Positions 25,318 through 54,292 of a DNA stretch of 64,000 bases are shown one piece after another. Under the pieces are notes generated by a model. It was given only the letters and a program-made list of their open reading frames with translations. It was not told the origin of the DNA and did not search any database. This stretch comes from Selenomonas sputigena ATCC 35185. GTDB taxonomy: Bacteria > Bacillota > Negativicutes > Selenomonadales > Selenomonadaceae. Both the position numbers and the translations under genes were made by a program. The first letter of the stretch is position 1; each line of letters begins with the position of its first letter. The DNA lies in NCBI RefSeq assembly GCF_000208405.1, contig NC_015437.1, forward strand, positions 496,001 through 560,000, written 5' to 3'.

Positions 25318-25665
25318 CTTGGCAAAACTAGGTATAAATACCTAAAATTTTCAAAGAGTTAAGCGGAAAAATTTTTTTGAGACAGATATACTAAAGTCAG
25401 AAAACATAAGAGAAATACATATCATGTGCATAAGTTGTTATAGGCTCATTGTACCCCCCCCCCCCATAAGTCGTAAAATAAACGACTTTTTTACTAGGGG
25501 CAAGCAGGAAAAAGTCGCATGGATGGCGAATGACAAAACATAGAGGGGAAATCTCTTTGTAGTATGCGCTTTTACCTTGTTTGTCCGCTGCTGTCGGAGC
25601 AATAGAGGAAGGGCGTACTCGTGGAGTGTATATGTGTTCATAGAAGCTGGGCTGGGAGGTTCATT
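25318..25665 (+). other. Leader of MCP 3 with C12 tract and hairpin
   Basis: About 350 bases without a credible gene. It contains a run of 12 C at 25454-25465. Two bases later a terminator-like hairpin begins: AAGTCGT (25468-25474) and ACGACTT (25482-25488), then TTTT. No convincing promoter boxes were found. A short palindrome GTATAAATAC lies near 25332. Confidence 0.5.
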
Positions 25666-27630
25666 ATGAAGTTGAAAGGAAAAATGCTCACGGGGATCGG
25701 CGTGCCGCTTCTCATCGTATTCGTCGTCATGGGATTCGTCATCAATACGATGGCGACGGACGCCTTGTCGACATCCAAACAGAGGAGCATGAGCGAGCTT
25801 GGCTCGCGCTATGCGAATGCTATCGTCACGATCGTTGAGTCGGCGCGCGTCGCCGTCAATACGACTTGCATGAATTGGGCACAGAGTCTGCCCGAAGGCG
25901 CCGCGATGCAGGAGGCCGTGCGCGAGATCGCCAAACTCGACGGCGTCGACAGCGCCGTCTTCGGGAATGCGGACGGCTCCTATGTGGCATCAAGTTCGCT
26001 TGGCGCGGGCTACGACCCGAGGACGCGCGCGTGGTACAAGGAGGCGGCGGCGCAGCCGGGAAAACTCATCGTCTCGAAGCCGTTCAAATCGGTCAAGGGC
26101 GATCCGGTCATCAGTCTGAGCCGCGCGATCGTGCAGAACGGCGCAGTGCGCGGCGTTCTCTGCGTCGGCATATCGCTTGAGCCGGTGGGAAATCTGCTCA
26201 AGGACGTCAAGGTCGGCGAGACCGGCTCGATCGTCGTCCTCGGCCCCGATACCGAGTACATCTATCATCCGAAGTATACGGTCGAGGATAAGTTCAACGA
26301 GATTGACGGCGGCGCTTACAAGGACTTTGCCGCCAGATTGACGACGGGAAAGCCCGAGCAGATCGAAACGGAATATCAGGGCGTGCAGAAGTTCTATTCC
26401 GCCGTACCTGTGGGGGAGACGGGCTGGACGCTCCTCGTGGCTCTGCCGGTCTCCGAGGCGAACGCCGCGGCTGCGCACATGAGCTGGGCGCTGCTTGCGA
26501 TCTGCGCCATAGCGCTCGCACTTTTGCTGGGCATCACTTATGTCCTTTTGACGTCGGTGACAACGCCGATCGGCGCTCTTTCGGGTCTGATGGAAAAGAT
26601 TGCGGACGGCGATCTCACGGCACATCTGACGAAGAGCGACCGCAGCGACGAGATCGGCACGCTGCAGAACAGCTGCCGCGATATGCTCGAAGGCCTGCAG
26701 ACGACGGTCAAGTCGACGAAGTCGGCTGCCGAGCAGGTGGCCGCGTCGAGCGAGGAACTGACGGCGAGCGCTGCACAGACGGCGACGGCTGCACAGTCCG
26801 CCGCTGAAGCCGTCTGCATCATCGCCGAAGAGAGCGCAAACCAGAGCGGGATTGTCGACGCCGCGACGCAGAAGGTCACGGGCGTCAACCGGCAGATGAA
26901 GACGATTTCGGAGGCGGTCAGCACGGCGAAGCGCGCCGTGAACCTGACGGGCGAGGCGACGCAGGAAGGCGACGAGAAGCTCGACCTTGCCATCGAGGGC
27001 GTCGAGGGCCTTGCCAAGAGCGCGGCGACGGCGAGCGCGGCGGTCGAGAAGCTTTACGACGGTTCGAAGAACATCGCGGAGATCAACGAGGTCATCACCT
27101 CGATTGCAGGGCAGACGAAGCTCCTCGCCCTCAATGCCGCCATTGAGGCGGCGCGCGCCGGCGAGCAGGGCAAGGGATTCGCCGTCGTCGCCGAAGAGGT
27201 GCGAAAGCTTGCCGAAGAGTCCGAAGCGGCGGCGAAGGAGATCAGCGGCGTCATACAGAAGAACTCCGAAGAGATCGAGCATGTCTTCGAACTCACGAGG
27301 AATCAGCAGGGCGAGGTGCGTGAGAACGTCGGGCAGGTCAAGGAAGCGGGCGAGAAATTCCATCGCATCATGGATCTCGTGGCGGAGCTGGAAACGAGCA
27401 TAGAGAGTATCGTCGAGATCAGTGAGAAGGTGCAGGCCGACTGCAGCGAGACGACGGCTTCCGTGCAGAAGATCAACGATGTCTCGCATACGGTGCAGCA
27501 GAAAGCGACGGACGTCTCCGCCGTATCGGAGGAGCAGGCGGCATCGAACGAGGAAATCGCCGCCGCCAGCCAGACGCTCGCCGACCTCGCCGAACGTCTG
27601 CAGGCGGGCGTAGAAAAGTTCCGCCTGTGA
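25666..27630 (+). CDS. Methyl-accepting chemotaxis protein 3 (dCache sensor)
   Basis: 654 residues, closest in layout to MCP 1. It has TM1 at 9-30, dCache with [14 protein letters not shown]2 near 273-298, HAMP and signalling hairpin ([41 protein letters not shown]). The late-strand pocket residue is Gly ([10 protein letters not shown]) rather than Asp, a third variant in this cluster. ATG 25666 follows GGGAGGT. The gene is preceded by a 12-C homopolymer about 200 bases upstream. Confidence 0.93.
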
Positions 27631-48399: not shown

Positions 48400-48627
48400 A
48401 AAACAGGTGCTGAACAACGCTTTAGGACGCATAGAAAACGCTGTACCGAAAACACGGTGCTTTTCTCTATGTTTTCTAAAAGAGAATCCGGTCAAATGCC
48501 GGAGCGGTCCCGCCACTGTAAGGAAGAGCAAAGCTGCATGGATGAACATCCGGTCACTGGGGAGCCATCTCTGGGAAGGCGCAGCCGCGCGAGGATTCCG
48601 AGCCAGGAGAACTGCCTGTTTTGTGCG
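48400..48627 (+). ncRNA. Cobalamin (B12) riboswitch
   Basis: The B12-box core is evident: AGAATCCGGTC, GGAGCGGTCCCGCCACTG (GCCACTG at 48512-48518), CATCCGGTCACTGGG and the closing GAGCCAGGAGAACTGCCTG (ending about 48619). The outer boundaries are approximate. A terminator at 48688 provides the expression platform, and the gene controlled is an outer-membrane TonB-dependent receptor. Confidence 0.92.
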
Positions 48628-48687
48628 CCCCGCAGATCCACGAGAGATGGGAAGGGGAGCCGACTACGATATCGGGATGATATAGCG

Positions 48688-48714: not shown

Positions 48715-48900
48715 ATTATGAAAATCCAAGAAGTCAAGCCTAAAGGGCGCAGACGGATTGGCGAACTTTCATGAAGGGCGGCGCACAATGTTCATAAATT
48801 GGACGTTTGTGCGTGCATTTTATGCAGTTTTTCAGCAATGCCGGATAGGCGTTGCAGGAAAAAGGAAGGGCGTACGCTCATCAAGGAGGAAATGAAAGAA

Positions 48901-51357
48901 ATGAAAAAGCGACACCTCACATGCGCGATTCTTGCCGGATTATTGTCCACATGGGGGGGGCAAAATCCCGCTCACGCAGGGCATGACGAAAATCTGCAAT
49001 TCTATACGCTGGACAGCATCGAAGTCACGGCGGAACAGACGATCAACCAGTTCGGCGACACGGTGACGGAGCAATCCTACTACCGTACGGGCGGTGATGT
49101 CAAGGTCATCACGCGCGAGGAGATCGAGAAGCGTCACTACGCGGATCTCACGGAGGCGATCAAGCGCATCCCGGGCGTGACGTTCCAGAACCCAGGCTAC
49201 CGCGGCGGTGAGTATGGATATCAGTTCTACAACAACGGCGTGCTCATCAACGGAGACTCGCGTGTCGTCATCCTCATCGATGGGCGGCGCGTGGACAACC
49301 TTACGAGTACGCGCATCGGTTACAATAGCACCAAGGGCAGTAAGTCCACAGGCGTCAATCTCGACCAGCTGCTCGGCATCGAGAGCGTCGATAAGATCGA
49401 GGTCATCAAAGGTCCCGGCGCATCGGCGTATGGACCGGATGCGACGGGCGGCGTCATCAACATCATCACGCGCAAGGGAACGGTCGAACGTAAGGGAACA
49501 CTCGATCTTTCGACCGGCTCGTGGAGCAAACATAATTATTCGCTGACGCTATCGGGTACCATCGATGAGAATCCTACCTTCCGCTATTTCGGCACGGTGA
49601 CGCGCACGTTGAGCGGCGATACGGAATACGTCGATGGCGAAACGGGCAAGATCGGCACGCTCGGCGGCTCGCACTGGGCGGAAGATGCGGTCAATATCCG
49701 CATCGACAAGGATCTGACCGATGAGCAGAGTATCAAGTTCTGGTACAACCACAAGAGCGGCAAAGACGGCTATCCGATCTCAACGCCGCGTCTCAAGTAT
49801 TGGAATCAGGACGACTGGGAACGCATCATTTTTGGCGCTGCCGTCGGTCAGCTGGACTCGAATAACGCCCTCAAAGGGGGCATCAACCCAAATACGGGAA
49901 ACTGGGAACCGGCACGCACGCTTGCCGGCGATGCGCGCAACCCCGGCTATGCGAACCTCTACGCACTTGATGGCAAGGTGTACAATTCGTTCAGCCGCTT
50001 TAGGCACAACGATTGGGAGTTGAAGTGGACGTTCGACAAGGACAATCGTATGGAGAGCTTCGTTCGGCTCTATCATCAAAACCACCGTTACTCCAACCGC
50101 GATAAGTATGTCTGGGGCGATAAGAAACGCAAAGATCTTGTTCAAGACTATCGCACACAATTCCCGACAGGTGCAACGAAAGAGCAGCTCAAGCAGTGGA
50201 TCAGCGATCATCTCGCGCCTTTCCCGGGCGGCGATCCGGCAAAGGTGCAGGAATGGCTCGAAAAAACGGGCGGCAAAGCGCCTGAGCCGACCAGCTGGTA
50301 CGAGGAAGAAAACCACGGTCTTCAAGTGCAGTACGCAAGAGCCATAGGCAAGAACGATGTCATCGCGAGCGTTACTTATGACAAGGCGAAGAACTATGCG
50401 AAAAGCATTCGGAACAATGGAAGAGTCACGGAATCGCATACGGCTCGCGACTCTGTCCTTGCCTATGTGCAGGACAAGATTCACATCACCCCGAACTGGG
50501 ATCTTACTCCCGCACTCCGCTACAGCTACTACTCAGGCTATGAGTCGTCTACTGCAGGGGACGATGTGCAGGGAAAAGGAAAGACGAACATCTTCACCTA
50601 TGCACTCAACACAGAATACGTATTTGACGATACCCTCAGCACATATTTCGGCTGGACGAAGATTCTCCGTCCGCTGCGCCAGGGCGACTACACAAAAGTA
50701 GACGGCGTATTTGAGACCCCGTTGAAAGATGAGCGCGGCGATGCGTGGACACTCGGCGTGCGCAAGGAGTTCTCTCAGCATACCGCACTTGCCGTTCACT
50801 ATGACTGGACGCGCATGAGCAATGCGATTGCGACGCTGCCGATTTGGAATAATGATGATGCCGATTTTTCCAGTACGGCGGTCAATGCACGCGAGGACAA
50901 GAAGTCGTTCAACATCACGTTCGACCATGCTTTTGACAAGCATTTCTCGATGAGCGCATCCTACACCCACATGGAGGACAAGTGGATGGCGAAGCCCGGC
51001 TGGGTGCTCGACCCGAACTGGGGCTACCAAAGCGGCAGCGACATCAATACGCAGATCAATCGTCTGCGTCCGCAAAATCACTATGCGCTCAATCTCTCCT
51101 ATGAGAAGGGGAAGATCTATACGGGACTCTTGATGAACTGGTATACGGGATGCAGTCCGACAGCGTTCACGGACAGTCAGTTCCTCGTCCTTGACTGGAA
51201 TTTCAACTACAGCTTCACCCCCGATCTCACAGGGTACCTTACTATAAACAATCTGACGAATGAGGCGTATCAGACCTCGTACAACTCATGGAACGGCATC
51301 GGCAGTTCAGCCATGCCCGGCCGCAGCATCATGGTCGGCGCACGCTATACGTTCTGA
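48901..51357 (+). CDS. TonB-dependent outer-membrane receptor, probably for cobalamin or a related corrinoid
   Basis: 818 residues. After a signal peptide ending near AHAG come a TonB-box-like DSIEVTAEQ, a plug domain (GGDVKVITREEIEKRHYADLTEAIKRIPGVTFQNPG; IEVIKGPGASAYGPDATGGVINIITRKG), then a 22-strand-type barrel ending in the aromatic ARYTF required for outer-membrane insertion. ATG 48901 is 10 bases after AAGGAGGA. The B12 riboswitch and the following BtuFCD-like genes point to cobalamin. Within the signal peptide, codons TGG GGG GGG create a run of eight G (48953-48960) that could slip. Confidence 0.88.
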   Translation: MKKRHLTCAILAGLLSTWGGQNPAHAGHDENLQFYTLDSIEVTAEQTINQFGDTVTEQSYYRTGGDVKVITREEIEKRHYADLTEAIKRIPGVTFQNPGYRGGEYGYQFYNNGVLINGDSRVVILIDGRRVDNLTSTRIGYNSTKGSKSTGVNLDQLLGIESVDKIEVIKGPGASAYGPDATGGVINIITRKGTVERKGTLDLSTGSWSKHNYSLTLSGTIDENPTFRYFGTVTRTLSGDTEYVDGETGKIGTLGGSHWAEDAVNIRIDKDLTDEQSIKFWYNHKSGKDGYPISTPRLKYWNQDDWERIIFGAAVGQLDSNNALKGGINPNTGNWEPARTLAGDARNPGYANLYALDGKVYNSFSRFRHNDWELKWTFDKDNRMESFVRLYHQNHRYSNRDKYVWGDKKRKDLVQDYRTQFPTGATKEQLKQWISDHLAPFPGGDPAKVQEWLEKTGGKAPEPTSWYEEENHGLQVQYARAIGKNDVIASVTYDKAKNYAKSIRNNGRVTESHTARDSVLAYVQDKIHITPNWDLTPALRYSYYSGYESSTAGDDVQGKGKTNIFTYALNTEYVFDDTLSTYFGWTKILRPLRQGDYTKVDGVFETPLKDERGDAWTLGVRKEFSQHTALAVHYDWTRMSNAIATLPIWNNDDADFSSTAVNAREDKKSFNITFDHAFDKHFSMSASYTHMEDKWMAKPGWVLDPNWGYQSGSDINTQINRLRPQNHYALNLSYEKGKIYTGLLMNWYTGCSPTAFTDSQFLVLDWNFNYSFTPDLTGYLTINNLTNEAYQTSYNSWNGIGSSAMPGRSIMVGARYTF

Positions 51358-51435: not shown

Positions 51436-52455
51436 ATGAAAGTTTTCTATCTGTTGCTCATCTGCCTCGTTTTCCTGCTCACGGCTTGCAGTCCCATCGT
51501 GAAGGTGCAGGATGAAAATGCACAGCGTCTTGGCACAGCGGAGCAGGCGGATGCAGCGTATACGCCCGTCACGATTGAGAACATCAACGAAAAGGGCGAC
51601 CCCATCGCGCAGGTCTACGAGCGTCCGCCGGAGCGCGTGGTCGCCGTCTGGCAGAACTCGATCGAGACGCTGCTCGCGCTCGGCGTGGGCGATCGCATCG
51701 TTGCAGGCATGGGGGTGCCGGACGCGAAATACATCCGACCGGAGTACCGAGCGGCATACGAGGCGATCCCCTACACGAGTCTCGAACATCTCGACGTGGA
51801 GACGATCCTCATGATGCAGCCTGATCTGATCGTCGGCTGGGCGTCCACCTTCTCTCCGAAGGTACTGCGCTCTACGACGTTTTGGGCGGGGCGCGGCGTG
51901 CACACTTACATCGCACCGGCGTCTGCACGCATGACAAAGATGAAAACCATCGCGCAGGAGTGCGAGGACATCCGAAATCTCGGCCGCATCTTCGGACGGG
52001 AAGATCGTGCCGAGACTCTCATCGGCGAGATGCAGCATGAAATCTCATTTGTCGCTGAAAAGACCGCCCACCGAGAAAAACGTCCGCGCGCTCTCGTCAT
52101 CGAGCTTATGGGCAAGGAGATTCGTACCTATGGCAAAGATACGCTCGCAGGCGATATGCTTCGGGCGCTCGGCGCCGAGCATCTGGCGGCGGACGGCACG
52201 AGTCTCAGCATGGAAGAGATGATTGAGCTGAACCCCGACGCGATCTTTCTCGTTGTCATCGAAAACGACTATGGCAACGAGGATGCGATCCTCGCACGCC
52301 TCTATGAGAATCCGGCGCTTAGCTCGCTCGTCTGTGTAAAAGAGAGACGCATCTATACGGCGCCGCTCTATGCGGTCTACAGTGCGGGGATTCGCACTTA
52401 CGACGGCATCACGATCTTTGCTCATGGGCTGTATCCCGAGATATATGGAGAATAA
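51436..52455 (+). CDS. ABC transporter substrate-binding lipoprotein (BtuF/FecB-like)
   Basis: 339 residues. Lipoprotein signal with LLTAC lipobox near residue 18. A type III binding fold: PPERVVAVWQNSIETLLALGVGDRIVAG near 63, MMQPDLIVGWAS near 128, a long backbone helix around 170-205, and a second lobe with LGAEHLAADGTSLSMEEMIELNPDAIFLV. It presents cobalamin (or another large chelate) to the permease. AGGAGGAAGG precedes the ATG. First gene of the btuFCD-like set. Confidence 0.87.
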   Translation: MKVFYLLLICLVFLLTACSPIVKVQDENAQRLGTAEQADAAYTPVTIENINEKGDPIAQVYERPPERVVAVWQNSIETLLALGVGDRIVAGMGVPDAKYIRPEYRAAYEAIPYTSLEHLDVETILMMQPDLIVGWASTFSPKVLRSTTFWAGRGVHTYIAPASARMTKMKTIAQECEDIRNLGRIFGREDRAETLIGEMQHEISFVAEKTAHREKRPRALVIELMGKEIRTYGKDTLAGDMLRALGAEHLAADGTSLSMEEMIELNPDAIFLVVIENDYGNEDAILARLYENPALSSLVCVKERRIYTAPLYAVYSAGIRTYDGITIFAHGLYPEIYGE

Positions 52456-52458
52456 TCT

Positions 52459-53514
52459 ATGCAAGCATTTTTTTCTCGCGCGGGGCTTCTTGCCCTCTTA
52501 GCCCTGCTCACAGCGCTTCTCATTGGCGCACTCTTCTGGGCGCTCTCCATCGGAACGGTCGATCTGCCGCCCGATGCGATCGCCGCTGCGCTTCTCGATC
52601 AAATACAGAGCGGCACGCCCATCGACATGGCGGGCAAGGGTCCTGTCCATGACATCGTCTGGCTGCTTCGCCTGCCGCGCCTTTTGCTCGCCGCCATCAT
52701 CGGCGCGGGCCTTGCCACCTGCGGCGTCATCATGCAGGCGATTGTGAAGAATCCTCTCGCCGATCCTTACATCCTCGGCATCTCGGCGGGCGCGTCTCTT
52801 GGCGCGACCTTCGCCATCCTGCTTGGCGTCGGCGCGGCGCTCGGCGAAAATGCCGTCGGCATCGCCGCATTTTTGGGCGCATTTTCCATTTCTCTCGCGG
52901 TTTTATTCATCGCGAACATCGGCGGACGTGCGAATGCGATGAAGCTGCTGCTCGGCGGCATGGCGCTCAGCGCTGTGTGCAGCGCCTTTTCGAGCTTCAT
53001 TGTCTATTTTGCCAACGACAAGGAGGGCATTCAGACGATCACCTACTGGATGATGGGCAGTCTCGCGGGAGCAAAGTGGGAGCATATCGCGCTGCTCGGC
53101 GGCATTTCCCTGCTCGCGGTTCTCTTCTTCTGGTCGCAGAGCCGTATTCTCAACCTCATGCTGCTCGGCGATGCGTCCGCGATCACGCTCGGCACCGATC
53201 TTCATGCCTATCGGCAAGGCTATCTGATCGTCAGTGCGCTCGTCGTCGGCTTCGCCGTCTTTGCTGCGGGCATGATCGGCTTCGTCGGTCTGGTTGTTCC
53301 CCATGTCGTGCGGATGCTCGTCGGTACCGATCATAGGCGCCTCATCCCCGTGAGCGCTCTCGTGGGCGCGATCTTCCTCGTCGTCGCCGACGGGCTTTGC
53401 CGCGTTCTCATTCCACATACGGAGCTGCCGATCGGCATCCTGATCGCACTTGTGGGCGCACCCGCATTCATCTACCTCATGGTGAAGCGCACCTATGGAT
53501 TCGGAGGGCAGTGA
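52459..53514 (+). CDS. ABC transporter permease (BtuC/FecCD family)
   Basis: 351 residues with about 10 transmembrane helices. Family blocks are LPRLLLAAIIGAGLATCGVIMQAIVKNPLADPYILGISAGASLGA near 68-112, a central GGMALSAVCSAFSSF, and GFVGLVVPHVVRMLVGTDHRRLIP near 273-296, the coupling region. It forms the inner-membrane channel. Starts 3 bases after the upstream stop; the ATPase gene follows one base after its stop. Confidence 0.92.
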   Translation: MQAFFSRAGLLALLALLTALLIGALFWALSIGTVDLPPDAIAAALLDQIQSGTPIDMAGKGPVHDIVWLLRLPRLLLAAIIGAGLATCGVIMQAIVKNPLADPYILGISAGASLGATFAILLGVGAALGENAVGIAAFLGAFSISLAVLFIANIGGRANAMKLLLGGMALSAVCSAFSSFIVYFANDKEGIQTITYWMMGSLAGAKWEHIALLGGISLLAVLFFWSQSRILNLMLLGDASAITLGTDLHAYRQGYLIVSALVVGFAVFAAGMIGFVGLVVPHVVRMLVGTDHRRLIPVSALVGAIFLVVADGLCRVLIPHTELPIGILIALVGAPAFIYLMVKRTYGFGGQ

Positions 53515-53515
53515 T

Positions 53516-54292
53516 ATGGAGATACTCGCGGAGGCGGTAAAACTCTTCATCGGAAACAAGGAGATCCTCAAGGGGTTAGATTTTCATCTGAAGCCGAAGG
53601 AATTTCTCGGCATCATCGGCCCCAACGGCAGCGGCAAGAGTATGTTTTTGAAATGCCTCTATCGCGTACAGAAGCCGACCGCAGGGACGATCACACTGAA
53701 CGGACACACACTCGATGAGATGTCTTATCGAGAGTCCGCACAGCAGATCTCTGTCGTGGCGCAGCATAATTTCTACAGCTTCGACTTCAGCGTGCTCGAC
53801 GTCGTGCTCATGGGGCGCTCGCCGCACAAGCGTCTTTTCGACCGTGACAATGCGAACGATTATGCGATCGCGCATCGCTCGCTTCGTACCGTCGGCATGG
53901 ACGATTGTGCAGAACGTAGCTTCTCAAGTCTCTCGGGCGGAGAGCAGCAGCGCGTGATTCTTGCGCGTGCTCTGACGCAGGAATCCGAGTGCATGATCCT
54001 CGACGAGCCGACCAATCATCTGGACATCAAGTATCAGTTGCAGATCATGGATATTGTAAAGCGGCTCGACCTCACCGTCGTCGCGGCGATCCATGACCTC
54101 AACATCGCCGCGCTTTATTGCGATCGTCTCATCGCCATACAGAAGGGGCGCATCGTTGGAGCTGGCACGCCGCGCGAGCTTTTGACGGAGGCGTTCATCC
54201 GCGATCTCTACGAAGTATGCGCGAAAGTGGAAGAAGGGGAGGACGGGCGCATCTATATCCGCTATGTGCCGCAGTACGGGATAAAATCGTAA
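53516..54292 (+). CDS. ABC transporter ATP-binding protein (BtuD/FepC-like)
   Basis: 258 residues. Walker A GPNGSGKS near 36, Q-loop VVAQHN, signature SSLSGGEQQRVILARAL near 139, Walker B CMILDEPTNHLDI, switch His in AAIHDLNIAALYCDRL. It follows the FecCD-type permease, GGAGGG lies before ATG 53516, and the in-frame ATG 53495 is inside the permease gene. It energises uptake of the same ligand. Confidence 0.92.
   Translation: MEILAEAVKLFIGNKEILKGLDFHLKPKEFLGIIGPNGSGKSMFLKCLYRVQKPTAGTITLNGHTLDEMSYRESAQQISVVAQHNFYSFDFSVLDVVLMGRSPHKRLFDRDNANDYAIAHRSLRTVGMDDCAERSFSSLSGGEQQRVILARALTQESECMILDEPTNHLDIKYQLQIMDIVKRLDLTVVAAIHDLNIAALYCDRLIAIQKGRIVGAGTPRELLTEAFIRDLYEVCAKVEEGEDGRIYIRYVPQYGIKS

Follow-up and report, generated by a model that had tools for sequence, protein, structure and literature searches.

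A candidate slippage switch in the signal peptide of a TonB-dependent receptor of Selenomonas sputigena, and related G/C tracts in receptor leaders of two genera

Introduction

In Neisseria meningitidis, the haemoglobin receptors HmbR and HpuA are phase-variable through poly-G tracts, the length of which sets the reading frame, and in meningococcal hmbR substitutions at the edge of the tract were described as changing the run and not the 'effective tract length' (PMC3786947). An earlier note on the DNA studied here stated that such tracts cause phase variation of outer-membrane receptors in other bacteria. Many poly-G/C targets of Campylobacter jejuni are LOS, capsule and flagellar genes. In strain NCTC11168, 29 poly-G/C loci of seven or more were described as switching genes ON and OFF (PMC4965091). 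A homopolymer near the gene start also acts in Listeria inlA, where a 5' poly(A) tract is associated with reversible inactivation (PMC2831843). Runs of 6G-8G were classed as 'mutable' (1e-7 to 1e-5) and runs of >7G as 'hypermutable' (1e-5 to 1e-2) in Table 1 of PMC4235727.

The locus described here is a TonB-dependent receptor (TBDR) gene with a G8 tract, located in a window of 64,000 nucleotides of the genome of Selenomonas sputigena ATCC 35185 (NC_015437.1, positions 496,001 to 560,000); coordinates given without further specification refer to this window. It resembles hmbR and hpuA in having a coding poly-G tract, and its AT plus G8, compared with G10 in orthologs, has the same effective tract length in the sense of PMC3786947. 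It differs from them in its tract, which is part of the signal-peptide coding sequence; in the cobalamin riboswitch upstream of the gene; in belonging to a diderm Firmicute; and in that its tract length is known from one genome of the species. As in C. jejuni, a genome-wide set of G/C runs is present; switching was measured there (PMC4965091), whereas here TBDR leaders dominate and the runs are known from sequence. The position of the homopolymer near the gene start is shared with Listeria inlA (PMC2831843). Tracts of the inlA type consist of A/T, in contrast to the G/C tracts considered here, which are fewer in the genome than composition predicts.

A literature search, in which few subscription papers were covered, returned no report of slippage switching in Selenomonas, Negativicutes or Veillonella, and none of a riboswitch-controlled phase-variable TBDR. 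Poly-G switching of receptors is already known from Neisseria, and poly-G phasomes from Campylobacter; the present locus apparently belongs to an undescribed phasome of oral Selenomonas. The wider set of slippery tracts is the more interesting part of the results, more so than the single receptor.

Methods

TBDRs were identified by a search with the plug domain PF07715. The leader of a TBDR was defined as the interval within 300 nt upstream of the plug domain, and the body as the 1800 nt starting at the plug. Expected numbers of G or C runs were calculated with a first-order Markov model, and the G7 words of the window were compared with 100 shuffles. Runs were counted in 19 genomes, comprising the genome of S. 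sputigena, 13 relatives, and five genomes chosen for carrying an ortholog of the window gene. The 13 relatives were taken from 36 same-family relatives as homolog carriers; other homolog carriers were omitted, among them G019, a relative rich in G9 runs (26). A search of contigs gave 28 homologous loci, of which 23 were inspected; the five omitted were partial matches in Campylobacterota-type MAGs and bins. For the frame check of leader tracts, the region 5' of each tract was searched by rule for start codons accompanied by a Shine-Dalgarno-like stretch, and the frame of the start was compared with that of the plug.

Receptor gene and G8 tract

The receptor gene extends over positions 48901-51357 of the plus strand and encodes 818 amino acids. 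Its plug domain (PF07715, 67.0 bits) and its beta-barrel domain (PF00593, 63.3 bits) both scored above the Pfam cut-offs. The ATG at 48901 is a good start for the 818-codon open reading frame, with the Shine-Dalgarno-like stretch AAGGAGG just upstream at 48883-48889 on the same strand. The signal peptide MKKRHLTCAILAGLLSTWGGQNPAHA (48901-48978, plus strand), which is followed by GHDENL, was assigned from the open reading frame and from an alignment of leaders with homologs, the cleavage site being judged by eye.

The tract, a putative slippage switch, begins 52 nt into the open reading frame. It consists of G at 48953-48960 on the plus strand, preceded by T at 48952 and followed by C, and is read as TGG GGG GGG CAA. 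Addition of one G leads to a TGA at 48984-48986 and removal of one G to a TGA at 49064-49066, both being native DNA read in other frames; by frame reading, a single-unit change in G8 abolishes the full-length receptor. The earlier note had placed a run of eight G in the signal peptide of a TBDR, with a TGA at about 48984 after an extra G and a later stop after loss of one, and the sequence, the open reading frame and the Pfam matches agree with it in all three respects. In the single assembled genome from which the length of the tract was taken, the copy is in frame (ON).

A cobalamin riboswitch (RF00174) was found upstream of the receptor on the same strand, at 48437-48633 (plus; cmscan 88.7 bits, E 1.4e-20), ending 267 nt 5' of the receptor start, which places the gene under predicted riboswitch control. 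The riboswitch was present in nine of 11 homologous loci scanned. Three genes of an ABC importer follow on the plus strand. They encode a BtuF/FhuD-like periplasmic binding protein (51436-52455; PF01497, with all nine NCBIfam matches below cut-off), a FecCD/BtuC-like permease (52459-53514; PF01032, with 249.5 bits against a cut-off of 334 for the BtuC equivalog NF003001) and an ATPase (53495-54292; PF00005). The receptor thus resembles BtuB (TIGR01779) in its place behind a cobalamin riboswitch and beside an ABC importer, and in its plug region, yet it scored far below the equivalog cut-off (82.1 against 599.7 bits), and assignment as a BtuB equivalog was rejected. The substrate was therefore deduced from the riboswitch and the neighbouring genes, from which we infer a corrinoid.

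Number and placement of G/C runs

The number of G runs was unremarkable. The window contained eight G7 words, compared with a shuffle mean of 5.5, and 27 of the 100 shuffles reached eight; six of the eight words were supplied by a C12 run at 25454-25465 and not by G8. With the dinucleotide content of the window, 0.92 G runs of at least eight were expected per window. Genome-wide, 11 G or C runs of at least eight were observed versus about 39 expected. An excess of G runs by count was rejected, as the genome has fewer runs than the Markov model predicts.

The placement of the runs was far from chance. Leaders of the 13 TBDRs in the genome hold five of the 11 runs versus 0.017 expected (binomial P 3.7e-12), the leader interval having been picked after the pattern was noticed in this genome, for which reason the count was repeated in other genomes. 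None of the 11 runs lay in the 1800 nt of a TBDR body, and eight of the 13 TBDRs had no run of eight or more.

The 19 family genomes contain 209 G/C runs of at least eight, of which 24 were located in TBDR leaders, all 24 in two genera, and none in the 1800 nt from a plug start. The 13 relatives contributed 112 runs and 87 plug matches; leader runs were found in F0473 (4/18) and G001 (1/7), some of them seen before this count was made, and the remaining 11 relatives had 0 of 87 runs in TBDR leaders. In the five ortholog-chosen genomes, with 86 runs and 88 plug matches, 14 leader runs were found versus a summed expectation of about 0.18. They were distributed over G087 (4/19), S. infelix (6/18), G078 (2/16), S. 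massiliensis (1/18) and oral taxon 892 (1/15). Four of them are the tracts of the focal orthologs, which were set aside because the five genomes had been picked for that ortholog; 10 of 82 runs were still located in leaders. The pattern is strong in two genera and absent from the rest of the sample, and generality across the family was not borne out, 11 of the 19 genomes having none of 87 runs in TBDR leaders.

Reading frames of leader tracts

Of 24 leader tracts, 19 were in frame with the plug and five out of frame, several tracts having more than one candidate start and signal peptides being judged by eye. The out-of-frame tracts occur in this genome (one), F0473 (one), S. infelix (two) and the focal ortholog of G087. 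This ortholog is 85% identical to the window receptor, stems from a one-contig genome and has the riboswitch upstream; its leader is out of frame and its body open over 817 codons. The other four out-of-frame TBDRs have open frames of 1622, 1633, 1556 and 720 codons. Natural out-of-frame alleles with an otherwise intact coding sequence are thus present in the focal ortholog of G087 and in four other TBDRs with leader tracts. Old pseudogenes would be expected to carry further stops. The out-of-frame assemblies could in part be homopolymer miscounts.

Two very large TBDRs were observed at genome positions 1344258 (locus L057) and 1458276 (L058), with open frames of 1622 and 1645 codons. Their leaders are near-identical, the former having a G10 tract out of frame and the latter being in frame.

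The tract site in orthologs and distant homologs

In 11 of 189 family genomes, including this one, the search gave a homolog with an E value of 1e-100 or lower. Nine of the 11 are at least 71% identical, with the window gene counted among them, and each of the nine has Gly-Gly(-Gly) at the tract site. The run is G8 (window) or G10 in six of these close orthologs and broken in three. G10 occurs in oral taxon 892, S. infelix, FOBRC6, G078 and G087; S. massiliensis has GGT GGG GGG, a G6, and S. artemidis and F0473 have GGC GGA GGG. Breakage of the run by synonymous codons in close relatives, named in the earlier note as evidence against switching, is found in part: the run is broken in three of nine, and six of nine retain G8 or G10. 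The homolog of G036 has no Gly-Gly at the tract site. In that of G089 (locus L167), the stretch before residue 46 was unrecognisable as a leader, and the upstream region looks unrelated, perhaps through an insertion.

In the alignment, the window copy and the four G10 orthologs that are in frame are equally long; the first two Gs of these orthologs correspond to A and T in the window copy. For this reason slippage may be infrequent in the window copy, or the gene may be fixed in the ON state.

Among the 23 inspected loci of the contig search, four had a run of at least eight, three of them in Selenomonas and one in Veillonella sp. VA139. No G/C run of five or more was present in the leader stretch of 14 of the 15 non-Selenomonas homologs inspected (one locus, L145, was unmatched over the leader). 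The VA139 homolog (L143, at about 4010) was seen to carry an in-frame G10 in the signal peptide; the other inspected Veillonella homologs had no G/C run of five or more there. A second receptor of F0473, 41% identical, has G9 at the same alignment column. In addition, paralogs of the window receptor were noted in a cluster at 1195095-1212206 of F0473 (L122), some apparently split and one with a G9 leader tract.

Interpretation

We regard the G8 tract as the probable slippage site of a contingency locus that acts at translation and still works as a switch. Slipped-strand mispairing at replication would alter the number of Gs in the tract. Leader and receptor body would then lie in different frames, and translation would end after about 28 or 54 codons. 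No receptor would reach the outer membrane from a shifted copy until a second slip restored it. The cobalamin riboswitch would set expression separately, in series with the frame switch, so that the receptor would be made only with the tract in frame and with cobalamin status permitting. The run lies early in the open reading frame and has a length at the border of the 7-8 or more Gs considered for such switches; by the classes of PMC4235727, G8 is borderline in this strain and the G10 of the relatives falls well inside the hypermutable class. Phase variation, as proposed in the earlier note, is best supported for the class of element: recurrent leader runs of 8-13, the run in six of nine orthologs, and out-of-frame alleles with intact bodies are consistent with TBDR leader G/C tracts being phase-variable. 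For the window gene the proposal is likely. The border length of G8, the broken run in three of nine close orthologs, the scarcity of leader runs in homologs beyond Selenomonas, the 11 genomes devoid of TBDR leader runs, the eight TBDRs of this genome that have no run of eight or more, and the chance of miscounted homopolymers weigh against it.

The main rival to a working switch is an eroded one. An ancestral tract of about G10 would have lost two 5'-edge Gs by substitution, leaving AT before G8, and the copy would be locked ON in practice and slip rarely. The presence of G at the window's A and T in four in-frame G10 orthologs of equal total length points in this direction, as do G6 or GGC GGA GGG at the site in other lineages and the position of G8 near the lower limit of lengths that switch (PMC4235727). 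Erosion is less easily reconciled with exactly G8 in two further in-frame TBDR leaders of this genome, in which runs of at least eight are rare (11), and we consider it rather unlikely. A chance run, arising from glycine codons where the signal peptide requires Gly-Gly, would agree with the absence of an excess by count and with the retention of Gly-Gly(-Gly) in the three close orthologs with a broken run, where the residues themselves may matter. Codon use argues against it. GGG made up 188 of 1195 Gly codons in 41 window open reading frames, and GGG GGG one of 80 Gly-Gly pairs, that pair being the W-GGG-GGG of the receptor; in six ortholog bodies GGG accounted for only 7-10% of Gly codons, and in the in-frame G10 orthologs every Gly codon at the tract site is GGG, three in succession. 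Another TBDR leader has its run, C9, in Pro codons, so the run recurs and glycine does not. Given this skew and the C9 tract, selection for glycine alone fails to explain the runs, and together with the placement test it makes a chance origin very improbable.

Two further explanations concern the origin and the level of the variation. Several of the genomes are drafts, homopolymers are error-prone and the lengths were taken from assemblies; the true run length might therefore differ, and the out-of-frame alleles might be errors. Such errors would not put runs into leaders with none in bodies, in-frame alleles dominate (19/24), and the assembled focal gene is unbroken, which leaves miscounting with a minimal probability. 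Transcriptional or ribosomal slippage at the tract would give a fixed mixture of products with no heritable change in the DNA, and out-of-frame alleles could then still yield some receptor. The tract lengths differ at the DNA level between orthologs and paralogs, and the alleles are mostly in frame, a state that slippage of this kind would not require; action at the RNA level is hardly probable.

A broader reading is put forward tentatively, as a serious possibility that we would not yet back. Oral Selenomonas and at least one Veillonella, by convergence or descent, would possess a phasome in which G/C tracts are preferred in the signal peptides or leaders of TBDRs. One corrinoid-type receptor would be doubly gated, by a heritable frame switch and by a cobalamin riboswitch, and the phasome would extend to promoters or leaders of chemoreceptor genes, to a two-partner-secretion transporter gene and to a zeta-toxin gene. 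If so, single cells of a mouth bacterium would gamble on a corrinoid-type receptor and on several other TBDRs, which would bear on competition for nutrients, on phage entry and on exposure to antibodies in plaque, and one sequenced genome would represent one of many on/off combinations.

Other G/C tracts of the genome

Six of the 11 genomic runs are located outside TBDR leaders, namely the C12 tract and five G8 tracts. The C12 tract (25454-25465 of the plus strand, G12 on the minus strand) is the longest G/C run in the genome. It lies about 200 nt 5' of a gene assigned by Pfam to a dCache/HAMP chemoreceptor (MCP; ATG at 25667) and is followed directly by a terminator-like hairpin at 25468-25488. 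A change in its length could alter the hairpin or the promoter spacing, and the tract possibly belongs to the same set of slippery tracts. When length variants of C12 were sought in 20 relatives, only G001 gave a match, over 94-97 bases that exclude the tract.

The five G8 runs each occupy positions 1501-1508 of their extracted loci. One lies upstream of a 4HB chemoreceptor gene (genome position 785692; L011) and another upstream of a gene of the ShlB/Omp85 type (1175961; L014). Both are preceded by ATGTCT(T/A)GC, and downstream of each run positions 11-16 read TATCAT or TATAAT; they are possible promoter-spacer switches. At 1626279 (L019) the run reads as C8 on the plus strand and lies within the leader of a large protein, putatively a surface protein, whose first 538 residues, which the locus covers, gave no Pfam match. 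A further G8 coincides with what is presumably the P-loop of a zeta-toxin-like gene (1145718; L013), where no single open frame of at least 70 aa spans the run and the flanking parts appear in different frames as assembled. The remaining G8 (1077907; L012) occupies the ribosome-binding site position of a nucleotidyltransferase gene, right in front of its presumed start.
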